Assembly (NCBI RefSeq): GCF_024298965.1
Contig: NZ_CP085193.1
Span: forward strand, 6,820,001-6,884,000
Origin: Streptomyces rapamycinicus NRRL 5491
Lineage (GTDB): Bacteria > Actinomycetota > Actinomycetes > Streptomycetales > Streptomycetaceae
Direction of reading: 5' to 3'
DNA length: 64,000 nt
Under the pieces are notes generated by a model. The model saw only the letters and a program-made list of their open reading frames with translations, did no database searches and was not told the origin of the DNA. Both the position numbers and the translations under genes were made by a program. Shown here piece after piece: positions 42,701 to 48,432 of the stretch. Each line of letters begins with the position of its first letter. Within the stretch, counting starts at the first letter, position 1.

Positions 42701-42840
42701 ACGCGGGGGAGCGAGGCCCGTCCGGGAGGCAGCCCAGAGCTTGTCCGGAGCCGTTTCGCGGGCTCGTCCGGAGCTGACTCGCGGGCTCGTCCGGAGCCGG
42801 TTCGGGAACTCACCCAGAGCTGGTTCGGGAGCTCACCCGG

Positions 42841-42917
42841 AGCCCGTCCGGAGCCCGTCCGGAGCCCGTCCGGAGCCCGTCCGGAGCCCGTCCGGAGCCC
42901 GTTCGGAGCCCGTCCGG
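42841..42917. repeat. 11-bp tandem repeat, seven copies (agcccgtccgg)n
   Basis: Seven units, one with a single change, preceded by ~100 bp of decayed related units (42740-42840). It lies in the 496-bp non-coding gap between the DUF2690 gene and mdh. The remainder of the gap is the mdh promoter region. Confidence 0.92.
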
Positions 42918-43139
42918 AGGAATTCGTAAAACCGGGGGGAATGAGCCGGGGGAATCGGGGCAGGCGCTGCCCGAGCCCCCCCCACGGGTGCGGCACTGGG
43001 CGGCCGCCTGCACTCCCCCTCCTGGCAGGCGGCCGCCAGAGTGCGCGGTGGTCCCATGTGCGCGGTGGTCCGGAACGCGCGGTGAGCGGTTACACAATGG
43101 CCCGAGAGAACGTGGGTCAGGTGCCGTCGGATAGCCTGA

Positions 43140-44332: not shown

Positions 44333-46237
44333 ATGGCCAATACGCGCGGTGAGCATTTTTCAGGTGATGCTGATTCTTCCGGCGCTCACTCTTCTGGCGA
44401 TGCTCACTCTTCCAGCGGTGCTCATTCTTCTGTAGGGAATCACTCCGCTCGTCTGCCGCGGTCGCGTTCGGAGCCGTCACGGGCCGTCCCTTCTCCTCGT
44501 ACCGGCGCTGACGCGTCTCCCTACGCCACCAGCGAGGCCACCCGGCTGTTATGCGCGGGCGCCTATCTGGACGACGACTTCCGGGACGCGGTCGTGGACG
44601 AGCTGTATGTCCACGAGGAGCGCGCCGTGGCGCCCTCGCTGGGCATCGACGCGGTCCGGGTGCTCGCACACGCGCTGCGCGCGCGCCGTCTGGAGGCGTG
44701 CTGGACCGCGCTGCTGGTGTCCTTATGGGTGCTGGACTTCCTGTTGGCGCAGGGCTTCTTCTATCTCTTCCTGCTCTCTTGCGCGTTGCTACTGCTGGCG
44801 GCCTGGGCCAGAGGTGGCGCCATGGGCGCCTTCCGCGCCGACTATCCCGGGGCCGACGGGGTCACCGTCACCCGGCGGCGGGCGGCCGCGGTGCTGCGGG
44901 TGCTCGGCTGTCTGACCCTGCTGTCCTATGCGTTCTCCGCCCTGACGCAGGCGTTCACGGACGGGCAGTCCGATCCGGGCGGGCTGCAGGAATTCGTACC
45001 GGTCCTGGCCACCGGGTCGGACACCACCGCCGCCTGGTTCGCGCTGGTGATCCCGGCCGCGATGGCCGCCGCGGTCGCCCTGCACCGTGAGCATGTGGCC
45101 CGGGTGCTGGCCACCGATCTGGAGCCGGAGACCTTCGCCGACCCCGCCGCGGACCCCGCGGAGCGGTTCGAGGGCGCGCGGTTCCAGCGGGTGCGGGCCC
45201 TGATCCGCCGTGAGCAGCACTCACCGGTGATCCTCTACCACGATCGGCACCCCTTCCTCGGCGCGGGCGCCGCGCATGACACCTGGACCCTCGCCGTGGA
45301 GCTGCGGCCGCGCGAGGGCGGGGATCCGGTGTCGCTGGACAACCGGGTGATCCTGGAGCGGATCCGGCCGCTGGTCGAGAAGTTGCGCACCCCGTCCGCC
45401 CAGGGCATGGCCGCCGTCCAGGGCGCCGCCGCCGCGCAGGGCGCCGCCCCCGTCCAAGGCGCCGCTCGTGCCGCCGCCGAGAGCCGTGACCGGCTGCGCG
45501 GCCTGGAGCTCGACGAATGCGTCTTCCTCAAGGTCACCGGATTACGAAGCCGCTCCTTCGTGCCGTACGGAGAGGCGGACTTCGCGCGGGAGCGGGCGGA
45601 GGCCGTCGAGGAGGGCGGTGAGATCCGCCGGCACTTCCTGCGCATCCGCGTCGGCGCATGGCGGGAAGAGGTCGTCACCACCGTCTTCGTGCGGGTGCAT
45701 ACGCAGGGCGGCATGCTGATGCTGGAGTTCGCCCCGCATGTACTGCGCCCGATCCGCCCGGACTTCCGGGCGGTCGACCGGCTCTCCGACTCCCACCGCC
45801 GCGGCGGGCTGCCGGGCAAGGTGATCTGGGCGCTGGGGCGGACGCCCACGGCGGCGGGCCGGGCGGTCATCCACGCCTTCCGCTCGGCCGCCTTCCTCTG
45901 GCGGATGTACGCGGGGGGTTATGAGGCGGCCATCCCCGACGGTCCGTGGGCCTCGGTGCGAGAGCTGGGCAGCGACGCCGGCGCGTCGCTCTTCCAGGAG
46001 ATGGATGTCAGCCGCTATCTGAAGAGCGTCGAGGACCGGGTGGCCAACGGCGTGCGAAGGGCGCTCGACGAAGCCGGCTGGGAGACCGGTGAGTTCGAGC
46101 AGAAGGTCATCAATGTGAGCGGCGGCGGAGTCTTCATCGAGTCCGCGGAGCACAGCGCCTTCGGCTTCGGTGACCACAACACCATCAGCAACACCACCGG
46201 AAGCAATGGAGCGGGAGGCGGCCATGGCGATGGCTGA
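44333..46237 (+). CDS. Membrane protein ending in a GFGDHN motif; three TTA codons
   Basis: 634 residues, no recognised family. The ATG at 44333 follows GGGGGGAAAC; longer in-frame readings run back into mdh. Ser/His/Gly-rich leader (1-50), helical cytoplasmic segment, then membrane helices at about 122-160 (two), 187-205 and 225-245. A soluble region of about 390 residues follows, with [20 protein letters not shown] and [19 protein letters not shown]. The C-terminus is [20 protein letters not shown], then FGDHNTISN and a Gly/Asn tail. SAFGFGDHN (608-616) matches SAIGFGDHN in the next gene. In-frame TTA codons at 44549, 44723 and 45542 make translation bldA-dependent. The gene overlaps the next by 14 bp. 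Confidence 0.78.
46154..46180 (+). other. GFGDHN motif, copy A (C-terminus of membrane protein)
   Basis: Encodes SAFGFGDHN followed by TISN. Eight of nine residues equal copy B at 46365-46391. Gly/Asn/hydrophobic composition and a disordered setting fit short amyloid-type signalling motifs (RHIM-like or BASS families); this is inference. Confidence 0.6.
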
Positions 46238-46685
46238 CACGGAGGACGGTAGCGACATGGGTGGCGGCGCGGACCACGCGGCGGGCGCGAGCGGTGGCGG
46301 CGCGACCCCGGCGGCGGGCGGCGGCAGCAAGTTCGGGAACATCCGGTTCGGCAAGGTGCAGGGCAGCGCCATCGGCTTCGGCGACCACAACCACATCGTG
46401 AACGGACCTCAGGCGGAGGCCCCCTGCGACCCCGCTTACCAGGAGCTGCTGGAGGCCGTTCGACAGCTAGCCGAGGATCTGCGGCGGGTGGTCCCCAGCC
46501 CGGAGGTCGGCGCGCTCTCCGACGAACTGGACCGGACCGAGGACGAGATCCAGCGCACCGGCCGGGCGGGGGCCGGCCGGCTGGCCCGGATCCGGGTGAT
46601 GTTGCAGGACGCGAGCGCCAGTGTCGGCATGCTCGCCTCGGGCGTCGCCGTCGGACAGGCGGTCGGCGCGCTGTTGGGCGGGTGA
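46224..46685 (+). CDS. Small protein with GFGDHN motif and hydrophobic C-terminus
   Basis: 153 residues. The ATG at 46224 (GGGAGG five nt upstream) lies within the end of the preceding gene. Disordered Gly/Ala-rich leader, then KFGNIRFGKVQGSAIGFGDH followed by NHIVNG (motif at residues 48-56), a helical coiled-coil region (YQELLEAVRQLAEDLRRVV; LSDELDRTEDEIQRTG) and a hydrophobic end (SASVGMLASGVAVGQAVGAL). This plan, a short self-assembly motif joined to a helical and membrane-seeking segment, is what would be expected of a small effector or adaptor triggered by a partner carrying the same motif. No catalytic domain seen. Function unknown. Confidence 0.75.
   Translation: MAMADTEDGSDMGGGADHAAGASGGGATPAAGGGSKFGNIRFGKVQGSAIGFGDHNHIVNGPQAEAPCDPAYQELLEAVRQLAEDLRRVVPSPEVGALSDELDRTEDEIQRTGRAGAGRLARIRVMLQDASASVGMLASGVAVGQAVGALLGG
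46365..46391 (+). other. GFGDHN motif, copy B
   Basis: Encodes SAIGFGDHN followed by HIVN; pairs with copy A at 46154-46180. It is preceded by KVQG, giving a V-Q-G...G...N spacing reminiscent of RHIM-like cores. Confidence 0.6.
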
Positions 46686-46686
46686 G

Positions 46687-47481
46687 ATGAGCACCCCGGG
46701 CGGCGAGGGGGGCCGTCGATGGGACGAGGAGGCCCAGCGCTGGGTGGGAGCGGGCGCGGAGCCACCGGCCCCGGGCCGAAGACCACCCAATCCGCATCTG
46801 GGCACGGTGCTGCTGGCGGTGCTCGCCGTGGTGCTGGTCGGCGGGATCGGGTTCGGCGCCTGGAAGCTGGTGTCGGACGGCGGGGATGACAAGCCCCGGG
46901 CGGACGGCGGTTCGCCCTCGGCCTCGTCCTGGTCGCCGTCGGCCCAGCAGCCTTCAACATCGTCGTCGGGGCCGTACGCGGAGCCGACCTCCGCGCCGCC
47001 GTCGGTGTCCGAGGACAGCACCCAAGGGCCGCCGGCGGACTATGTGCGCACCACCGACCCGGAGGGTTTCCGGCTGGATGTGCCCAGGGGCTGGCAGCGG
47101 GTCAAGCGCGACACCGGGGTGTTCTACGAGTCGTCCGACGGGGGCAGCCTGATCCAGGTCTTCGCGCTGACCGAGCCCGACATCACGCCGTATGAGGCGC
47201 TGCGCCAGGCGGAGACAGGGCTCAAGAAGAACCCCGACTACAAGCGGCATGAGCTCAAGCGGCTCGGGCCCGGCGATGACGCGGACGCGGAGCTTGAGTA
47301 CGGCTACCGCAGCGCCAAGTACGGTCCGCGCCGGATACTCGACCGGGCCTTCACCGGCCCCGACCGGGTGCAGTACGCGGTGCTGGTCGCGGGCCCGGCC
47401 GACGACTGGCCGAAGCAGCGGGAGCGGCAGGGCATCGTGCTGGCGTCCTTCTGCCCCACGGCCTACTGCCCGGCCACCTGA
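46687..47481 (+). CDS. Single-pass membrane protein with kinase-ectodomain-like C-terminus (1)
   Basis: 264 residues; the ATG is one base after the preceding stop. Short cytoplasmic N-terminus (EGGRRWDEEAQRWVGAG), one membrane helix (LGTVLLAVLAVVLVGGIGFG), Ser/Pro linker, then a ~145-residue outer domain beginning DYVRTTDPEGFRLDVPRGWQ. It ends FCPTAYCPAT with two close cysteines. The DPxGFxLxVPxGWxR opening is typical of the extracellular domains of many streptomycete Ser/Thr kinases, here without a kinase. Paralogue of 47614-48432. Probable ligand-binding partner in the GFGDHN cluster (inference). Confidence 0.8.
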   Translation: MSTPGGEGGRRWDEEAQRWVGAGAEPPAPGRRPPNPHLGTVLLAVLAVVLVGGIGFGAWKLVSDGGDDKPRADGGSPSASSWSPSAQQPSTSSSGPYAEPTSAPPSVSEDSTQGPPADYVRTTDPEGFRLDVPRGWQRVKRDTGVFYESSDGGSLIQVFALTEPDITPYEALRQAETGLKKNPDYKRHELKRLGPGDDADAELEYGYRSAKYGPRRILDRAFTGPDRVQYAVLVAGPADDWPKQRERQGIVLASFCPTAYCPAT

Positions 47482-47613
47482 CCGGCGGCCGGGCGACGGA
47501 TAAGTATCGGTGCGGTGACAGGGGGTGGGGCGGCCCCCGAACCGGGTACACCGATGTGAGCCAACACGGCTTATCCGCATATGGGAGCAGAGATCCATCA
47601 TCGGGGGGCATAG

Positions 47614-48432
47614 ATGAGCATGTACGACGGGGGCGCGCCGGGGCAGGACTCCAGGCGGGCGCTACGGGCGCTGGCGGTGATGATCTTCCTGGTCGCGGGG
47701 GTCGCGTTCTCCGGATGGGTGGCCTTCGGGGGCGATGGCACCTCCCGGAATCAGGCGGGTCCGCTGCCCTGGGACCGCGAGAGCCCCACGGCCACGCCGA
47801 GCGGGGACGCCTCCCAGCCGAGCGATCTCTACCCCTCGCCCGGCCCCGAGACCAGTGGGCCGACCGATCTCCCGACCGATCTCCCCACGGACCTTCCGAC
47901 CGGGGCACCCTCCGGATCCCCGTCCGCGACGCCGTTCGGCACCCCGTCCTCACCCTCCCTGACGGGTGCCGCCCCGCCCGCTGGCTACAGCACCCAGGCC
48001 GACCCGGCCGGATACCACCTCGCGGTCCCGGACGGATGGCGGCGGACGACCGAGGGCCCCAGCGTCTACTACACCTCGCCCGACGACAGCACCGTGATCC
48101 AGATCTTTGAGCTGCACGGCCCCGAGTCGACGCCGTACGAGTCCGCCCAGGAGGCCGAGCGGATCGCCTCCACCCACCGCGACTACGAGCAGATCGCCCT
48201 CACCCGGCTGGGCTCGGCCGCCATGGACCCGGTCCAGCTGGAGTACACATACGAGTCCAAGAGCGACGGCCACCGCCGGATGCTCGACCGCCGCTTCGCC
48301 GCCCCCGGCGGCACCATGTACGCGGTGCTGGTGAGCGGCCCCTCCGGGGCCGGGGACCGGGCGGAGGAGCGGAAGGTCCACCAGGCGGCGGTGGACACCT
48401 TCTGCCCGACCGCCTACTGCACCGCGTCCTGA
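47614..48432 (+). CDS. Single-pass membrane protein with kinase-ectodomain-like C-terminus (2)
   Basis: 272 residues; GGGGGG upstream of the ATG. One membrane helix near the N-terminus (LRALAVMIFLVAGVAFSGWV), a Thr/Pro/Asp linker (TDLPTDLPTDLPTGAPSGSP) and an outer domain starting GYSTQADPAGYHLAVPDGWR and ending FCPTAYCTAS. Clearly related to the upstream neighbour, so a tandem duplication. The 132-bp gap suggests its own promoter. Role unknown. Confidence 0.8.
   Translation: MSMYDGGAPGQDSRRALRALAVMIFLVAGVAFSGWVAFGGDGTSRNQAGPLPWDRESPTATPSGDASQPSDLYPSPGPETSGPTDLPTDLPTDLPTGAPSGSPSATPFGTPSSPSLTGAAPPAGYSTQADPAGYHLAVPDGWRRTTEGPSVYYTSPDDSTVIQIFELHGPESTPYESAQEAERIASTHRDYEQIALTRLGSAAMDPVQLEYTYESKSDGHRRMLDRRFAAPGGTMYAVLVSGPSGAGDRAEERKVHQAAVDTFCPTAYCTAS

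Follow-up and report, generated by a model that had tools for sequence, protein, structure and literature searches.

A probable receptor-effector signalling pair with a private homotypic motif in Streptomyces rapamycinicus, and its actinobacterial relatives

In Streptomyces rapamycinicus NRRL 5491, two overlapping genes in the 64,000-nucleotide stretch of DNA that was analysed (the window) encode a membrane protein and a small protein sharing a nearly identical short motif. The locus raises the question whether this likeness marks the two proteins as a signalling pair, in which a receptor passes a self-assembling fold to an effector. Such a pair had been proposed from the sequence alone, with a motif described as RHIM-like and a layout described as that of the bacterial BASS systems. 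Our analysis indicates that the two genes probably form a receptor-effector signalling pair that relies on a private homotypic motif, amyloid-like templating and a membrane-acting effector.

The gene pair in the window

Both open reading frames and both motifs were found at the positions given in the sequence-only reading. The features of the locus are as follows (window coordinates).

44333..46237, forward strand: receptor gene, 634 amino acids (open reading frame and translation); disordered N-terminus, conserved helical module, hydrophobic segments, C-terminal part of about 380 residues and tail motif (from the translation; positions conserved in paralogues)
44690..45088, forward strand: hydrophobic segments of the receptor, residues 120-166, 184-205 and 231-252 (Kyte-Doolittle profile, loop charges)
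46103..46195, forward strand: receptor-side motif region, with the motif at 46163-46180
46213..46218, forward strand: GGGAGG inside the receptor gene, probable ribosome-binding site of the small gene
46224..46685, forward strand: small effector gene, 153 amino acids, overlapping the receptor gene by 14 bp
46326..46403, forward strand: effector-side motif FGNIRFGKVQGSAIGFGDHNHIVNG, with GFGDHN at 46374-46391 (translation, profile)
46623..46682, forward strand: C-terminus of the small protein, residues 134-153, glycine-zipper-like and hydrophobic (Kyte-Doolittle), with a putative membrane role
46687..47481, forward strand: third gene of the apparent operon, 264 amino acids, one hydrophobic segment
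47614..48432, forward strand: fourth gene, 272 amino acids

The receptor motif SAFGFGDHN and the small-protein motif SAIGFGDHN are identical in eight of nine residues, as had been reported, and the small protein (46224-46685) bears SAIGFGDHNHIVN. The overlap of 14 bp was likewise confirmed; it spans 46224-46237, given the ATG at 46224 downstream of GGGAGG, and alternative in-frame starts of the small gene are possible at 46170 and 46206. The small protein runs from a Gly-rich leader through the motif and a helical body to a glycine-zipper-like C-terminus. Its last helix, GMLASGVAVGQAVGALLGG, is borderline-hydrophobic (Kyte-Doolittle maximum 1.63 over 19 residues), in agreement with the hydrophobic tail described earlier. 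In the receptor, residues 120-166 were read as a hairpin of two segments, and the charge pattern of the loops suggests that the C-terminal part may lie in the cytosol.

In the 12,466,108-bp genome, the codon pattern of GFGDHN is found at exactly two places, both in this pair, while the reversed control gave no occurrence. A profile of the wider motif retrieved the two copies of the pair (E 3.8e-15 and 1.2e-9) and no third carrier in the genome, the remaining matches being attributed to chance (E 2.93, 3.37 and 8.31).

The closest protein relatives are those of Streptomyces rhizosphaericus, S. violaceusniger and their kin. A near-identical small protein labelled Stenotrophomonas sp. NPDC087984 (P0019) probably comes from a mislabelled or contaminated Streptomyces assembly. 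At its N-terminus the receptor carries a Ser/His/Gly-rich low-complexity repeat (44378-44440) that is absent from the paralogues aligned, and it further contains a QGAA repeat insert (about 45400-45480) that the other 14 aligned sequences do not have.

The earlier statement that the receptor has neither an NLR nor a known sensor was borne out, as Pfam, NCBIfam and PADLOC gave no family for it at E<=1. A family search with 15 receptors returned only FA_desaturase (one receptor) and DUF5313 (one receptor), each below cut-off, and a profile search of solved structures gave no match for the receptors. The small protein showed only weak coiled-coil-like matches to solved structures in the profile search (best E 0.061). 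Its assignment to DUF5955 (PF19380) was rejected at 12.3 bits (E 0.23), against a Pfam cut-off of 27.1 bits; 17 of 48 homologues of the small protein match this family at E<=0.1, and the effectors of L273 (33.9 bits) and L274 (33.0 bits) pass the cut-off. A match of the small protein to an anti-sigma model (E 0.056, with 13.4 bits where the cut-off is 100) was not credited, nor was one to JetC (E 0.054). Elsewhere, the genome encodes one clear member of DUF5955 (L245, genome positions 3409447-3409707), which has a similar helical layout and no evident motif.

Co-variation, effector variety and insulation

The receptor or a paralogue of it was found in 248 of 392 Streptomyces genomes with the query P0001. 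From the matches listed, 120 regions of 118 genomes were taken, strongest first, with rows containing internal stops and some short partial matches being skipped. A small homologue on the same strand accompanies the receptor in 119 of 121 loci (the window and the 120 regions), and was not found in L141 and L143. This gave 119 homologous pairs, in addition to the paralogue pairs with motifs of their own that are described below.

The motif changes in tandem in the two partners: GAFAFGEHGVANN is paired with GAFAFGAHGVANN, RADNSSFAFGDHARAET is found in both partners, and NSAVNFGANGTANN is paired with NSAVNFGAHGTANN. Over a core of 13 residues, the identity within the 119 pairs is 0.689, compared to 0.371 after shuffling (maximum 0.425 of 2000). 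The partial Mantel correlation amounts to 0.604 once receptor-body and effector-body distances have been removed, a value that none of 999 permutations reached, while the best of 150 receptor control windows gave 0.310 and the best of 37 effector control windows 0.298. In every divergence bin the own partner exceeded the swapped partner, with 3629 versus 73 comparisons (63 ties) at body distances of 0.4-0.5 and 4 versus 0 (32 ties) at distances <0.1. The resemblance of the motifs is therefore more than chance, because it has been kept and re-made across 119 divergent pairs. Judged from these sequences, the matching also appears to exceed shared ancestry, the effect of which is lessened in the statistics and still present.

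The co-variation is in register. For 14 of 17 variable columns, the mutual information shared by a receptor column and an effector column is highest on the diagonal (row maximum); the top seven column pairs also lie there, and 10,000 random pairings of columns all stayed below the diagonal mean. The length of the motif, which varies by a one-residue indel, is concordant in every one of the 115 pairs that could be classified (four of the 119 could not). All 238 motif windows contain the core glycine, and 118 of them G-x-x-N, which is present in both partners of 54 pairs, in neither partner of 55 pairs and mixed in 10.

Distant receptor paralogues with 25-31% identity, some of them from other actinobacterial families, likewise end in a motif that is repeated at the N-terminus of the next gene's product. 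We tested 52 of 58 paralogue loci; L340, L344, L348, L358 and L359 were excluded owing to a miscalled next gene or frame, as was L360, a member of the primary clade, and L285 was kept in this test and excluded from the tree and the Pfam count. A 4-bp overlap of the two genes is seen in 24 of the 52 loci, and the match beats shuffles at p<0.01 in 48 of the 52, this level not being reached at L285, L331, L332 and L350. None of the 22 other same-strand neighbouring pairs of the window passed the same shuffle test, which used gene calls that did not include the pair itself. The own effector was ranked first of 52 for 27 receptors and among the top three for 42, close relatives often outranking it. 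The case for pairing is weakened by the four loci that miss p<0.01 and by the first rank in only 27 of 52.

In the 11 genomes from which two or three pairs were analysed, the receptor tail gives a higher score with its own effector than with another (26 of 26 comparisons), and cross-pair scores (mean 30.6) are near the shuffled background; pairs within one genome are insulated by this measure. Taking both kinds of pairs into account, the pairing of receptor tail and effector motif is well supported, and the view that a non-NLR receptor passes a self-matching motif on to the effector encoded next to it finds support well past the locus of the window, in co-variation, indels, paralogues and insulation.

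The effectors are of several kinds. Among 51 of them, Pfam families at E<=0.001 were DUF5955 (15), CAP12-PCTIR_TIR (CAP12/Pycsar-type TIR; 11), PNP_UDP_1 (8) and EAD1 (3), the remaining effectors being small proteins without a match, or missed. At L287 the matched ends are NNFGGNQSVGNTNTTQTFG and NNFGGNQSAGNTDTTQTFG, the latter ahead of the TIR domain, and at L330 they are SGIVNMGGTNDFTNTAVGDQA and SGIVNMGGTNSFTNTAVGDQA, the latter ahead of the PNP_UDP domain. In a receptor tree built from 51 paralogues and 15 primary pairs (every eighth one was taken), 66 sequences in all, the effector class changes four times (minimum three; shuffled mean 21.6), so that the effector type is stable within clades while the motifs drift. 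In the SGGA clade, 9 of 10 effectors contain two motif copies by eye, compared to one in the receptor. These two-copy effectors, which include L329, L335, L338 and L147-L152, recall HET-S, which carries two pseudo-repeats of its motif.

Two distant receptors served as single-sequence queries, which under-count. One matched 34 of 296 genomes at class level, of which 18, from four families, are not Streptomyces; the other matched 8 of 296 at phylum level, including two from outside the class, and there no effector was callable in the sequence stretch examined.

Proposed mechanism and rival explanations

We infer the cytosolic side, the amyloid state, the trigger, the membrane action and the outcome as follows. 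The membrane receptor would hold its C-terminal tail in the cytosol, and stimulation would cause receptors to cluster. The clustered tails could then stack in register and form a beta-arch or amyloid-like seed, which would template the small protein's nearly identical N-terminal motif. Templating would gather the helical domains of the small protein and push its hydrophobic C-terminus into the membrane, and this insertion would result in cell damage or arrest. Related receptors, each using a motif of its own, may perform the same handover from tail to N-terminus with TIR, PNP_UDP or EAD1 proteins or with other small helical effectors. On balance we favour the broader view that membrane receptors lacking an NTPase form an undescribed superfamily, which would run several mutually insulated, prion-like channels per actinobacterial cell. 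Each tail would template its own neighbour alone, and evolution would have joined the tail code to helical proteins active on membranes, to TIR NADases, to PNP_UDP nucleosidases and to EAD1 adaptors.

A templated beta-arch is preferred because the matching is by identity and in register, because the motif is short and surrounded by Gly/Ser/Thr/Asn-rich sequence, and because the effector classes (small hydrophobic helical, TIR, PNP_UDP) recur in bacterial and fungal amyloid signalosomes; TIR in bacteria and PNP_UDP in fungi are effectors of known systems in the excerpted texts of PMC7889193 and PMC9815663. The amyloid reading is weakened by the half of the motif windows without G-x-x-N and by the position of the motif, which leads the effector here, whereas known amyloid signalling motifs lie at the effector C-terminus in the excerpts cited. 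It is also weakened by fungal PUASM fusions with GFP behind the motif, an arrangement in which the motif leads as it does here, and which formed no foci according to the excerpted part of PMC9815663.

The main rival to templating is stoichiometric docking, in which ordinary beta-strand pairing between the motifs would give a small, fixed complex, with neither fibre nor propagation; in a variant, this complex would perhaps keep the effector at the membrane, possibly in an inactive form, until a signal releases it. The pairing, co-variation and insulation data also fit docking. However, identity at the same columns is expected of parallel in-register stacking and is not required of a complementary interface, and the two copies in SGGA-clade effectors versus one in the receptor, as in HET-S, also speak against docking, which we consider unlikely. 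As two chains with one motif could have a common ligand, a shared third partner, e.g., a cytoskeletal or cell-wall protein, might instead bind and select both motifs, and a third gene of the operon was indeed counted as conserved (in the gene-order survey, a fourth-gene-like gene after the small gene). Yet the profile search revealed no third motif carrier in the genome, and the motif varies by clade and between pairs of one genome, so that each pair would need a partner of its own; this makes a common ligand quite improbable.

The match could also lack a function, if local duplication followed by repeated gene conversion kept the two segments alike. They lie about 200 bp apart, and a few loci (L064, L073) are near-identical at the DNA level as well. 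Against this, codons at identical residues agree at 780 of 1066 sites within pairs (0.732) versus 0.730 between genomes and, when matched by column and residue, at 772 of 1055 sites versus 755 expected. Codon identity within pairs thus equals that between genomes, so it is the residues, not the DNA, that are kept alike. Gene conversion was rejected as a general cause on these codon data, and we assign it a very small probability; single loci may have undergone it.

Known systems and gene neighbourhood

The core of RHIM is [IVLF]-Q-[IVLF]-G-x-x-N (I/V-Q-I/V-G). Its glutamine core is missing in 238 of 238 motif windows, 118 of which have G-x-x-N, and the motif was rejected as a RHIM. The templated pair that we propose resembles HET-S/NWD2 in having one receptor motif versus two in SGGA-clade effectors (by eye) and in the co-variation of receptor and effector motifs; it differs in being bacterial, non-NLR and non-HeLo, with an unrelated motif sequence. 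A short Gly-centred hydrophobic core is common to the present motif, RHIM, the fungal PP motif and BASS3, and about half of the motif windows fit the pattern [FIV]-x-[IVF]-G-x-x-N, which is similar to the BASS3 peptide VDLRDAKGVQVGDGNVQINRF in the excerpted text of PMC8086366.

In BASS1-10, NLR and Bell proteins form amyloid signalling pairs (Dyrka et al. 2020, as summarized in excerpts of PMC7889193, PMC8086366 and PMC9815663), with the motif at the N-terminus of the NLR and the C-terminus of the effector (PMC7889193, same excerpt). The BASS-pair layout proposed for the window held in part: the same motif does occur in adjacent or overlapping genes, but in the window and the pairs read it is located at the receptor C-terminus and the effector N-terminus, which is the reverse polarity. 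Likenesses to BASS are further the repetition of a short motif at the gene junction, the occurrence in multicellular actinobacteria and the membrane-type helical effectors, TIR effectors being a minority. In contrast to BASS, the receptor is a membrane protein without a known domain and without an NLR (NB-ARC/NACHT NTPase), and the family uses PNP_UDP and EAD1 effectors. It is set apart from BASS by layout and receptor type, the comparison of motifs covering one printed BASS3 peptide. As proposed here, the pair works like a BASS signalosome yet fails two defining features, the NLR and the polarity.

In the EACC1 system, a single-TM EACC1 domain is encoded beside a caspase-domain gene (2020; excerpt of PMC7159879). 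By that excerpt, the present family resembles it as a two-gene actinobacterial membrane system with variable effectors in which EAD1 is sometimes used, and differs in a receptor of 500-650 residues with several hydrophobic segments (window receptor) and in the matched motif. Membership in EACC1 was rejected, as none of 51 effectors matched a caspase family at E<=0.001 and the receptor is not single-TM. DUF5955 resembles the helical body of the small effectors and is matched by 15 of 51 paralogue effectors, whereas the small protein of the window falls below its threshold.

Searches of an open-access literature collection without bioRxiv preprints revealed no description of the receptor family, and an earlier description elsewhere is possible. 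We class the receptor superfamily as new and the present pair as otherwise akin to known amyloid signalling pairs. A 2021 review posed NLR-independent signalling amyloids in bacterial pathways as an open question (excerpt of PMC7889193). If our reading is true, bacterial amyloid signalling would not depend on NLRs. The family supplies many natural receptor-effector pairs with measured matching, including several that differ within one genome, so that the question can be tested with short peptides, and it offers a natural set for asking how self-templating motifs keep their specificity within one cell. The results suggest a possible role for a receptor family without a known domain that is widespread in Streptomyces and point to an unrecognised, possibly prion-like bacterial alarm system, in which private tags are joined to different, probably cell-damaging proteins.

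The third gene begins 1 bp past the small gene. Both the third (E 4.1e-6) and the fourth gene (E 4.5e-5) weakly resemble TIGR03931 (type VII secretion-associated) below the family cut-off; the two (46687-48432) are paralogues with one hydrophobic segment, and kindred genes follow some SGGA-type pairs (L340, L348, L358). The conserved membrane protein encoded beside the pair might serve as a sensor or regulator. A tblastn survey of 80 named Streptomyces loci detected a fourth-gene homologue in 74 of them, mdh in 71 and the small protein in 68. Gene order was judged in 16 of these 80 loci, most of which share, within contig reach, the succession folD - DUF3017 - XRE - mdh - receptor - small - fourth-gene-like - aldehyde dehydrogenase. 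The conserved order of the pair therefore indicates a conserved chromosome and not a mobile island, and it weakens the reading as a defence system, because such conservation on the core chromosome is unusual for defence. In the intergenic region between the XRE/DUF2690 gene and mdh (about 42810-42960), the minus-strand translation repeats GLRTGSGRAPD, suggesting a tandem repeat.
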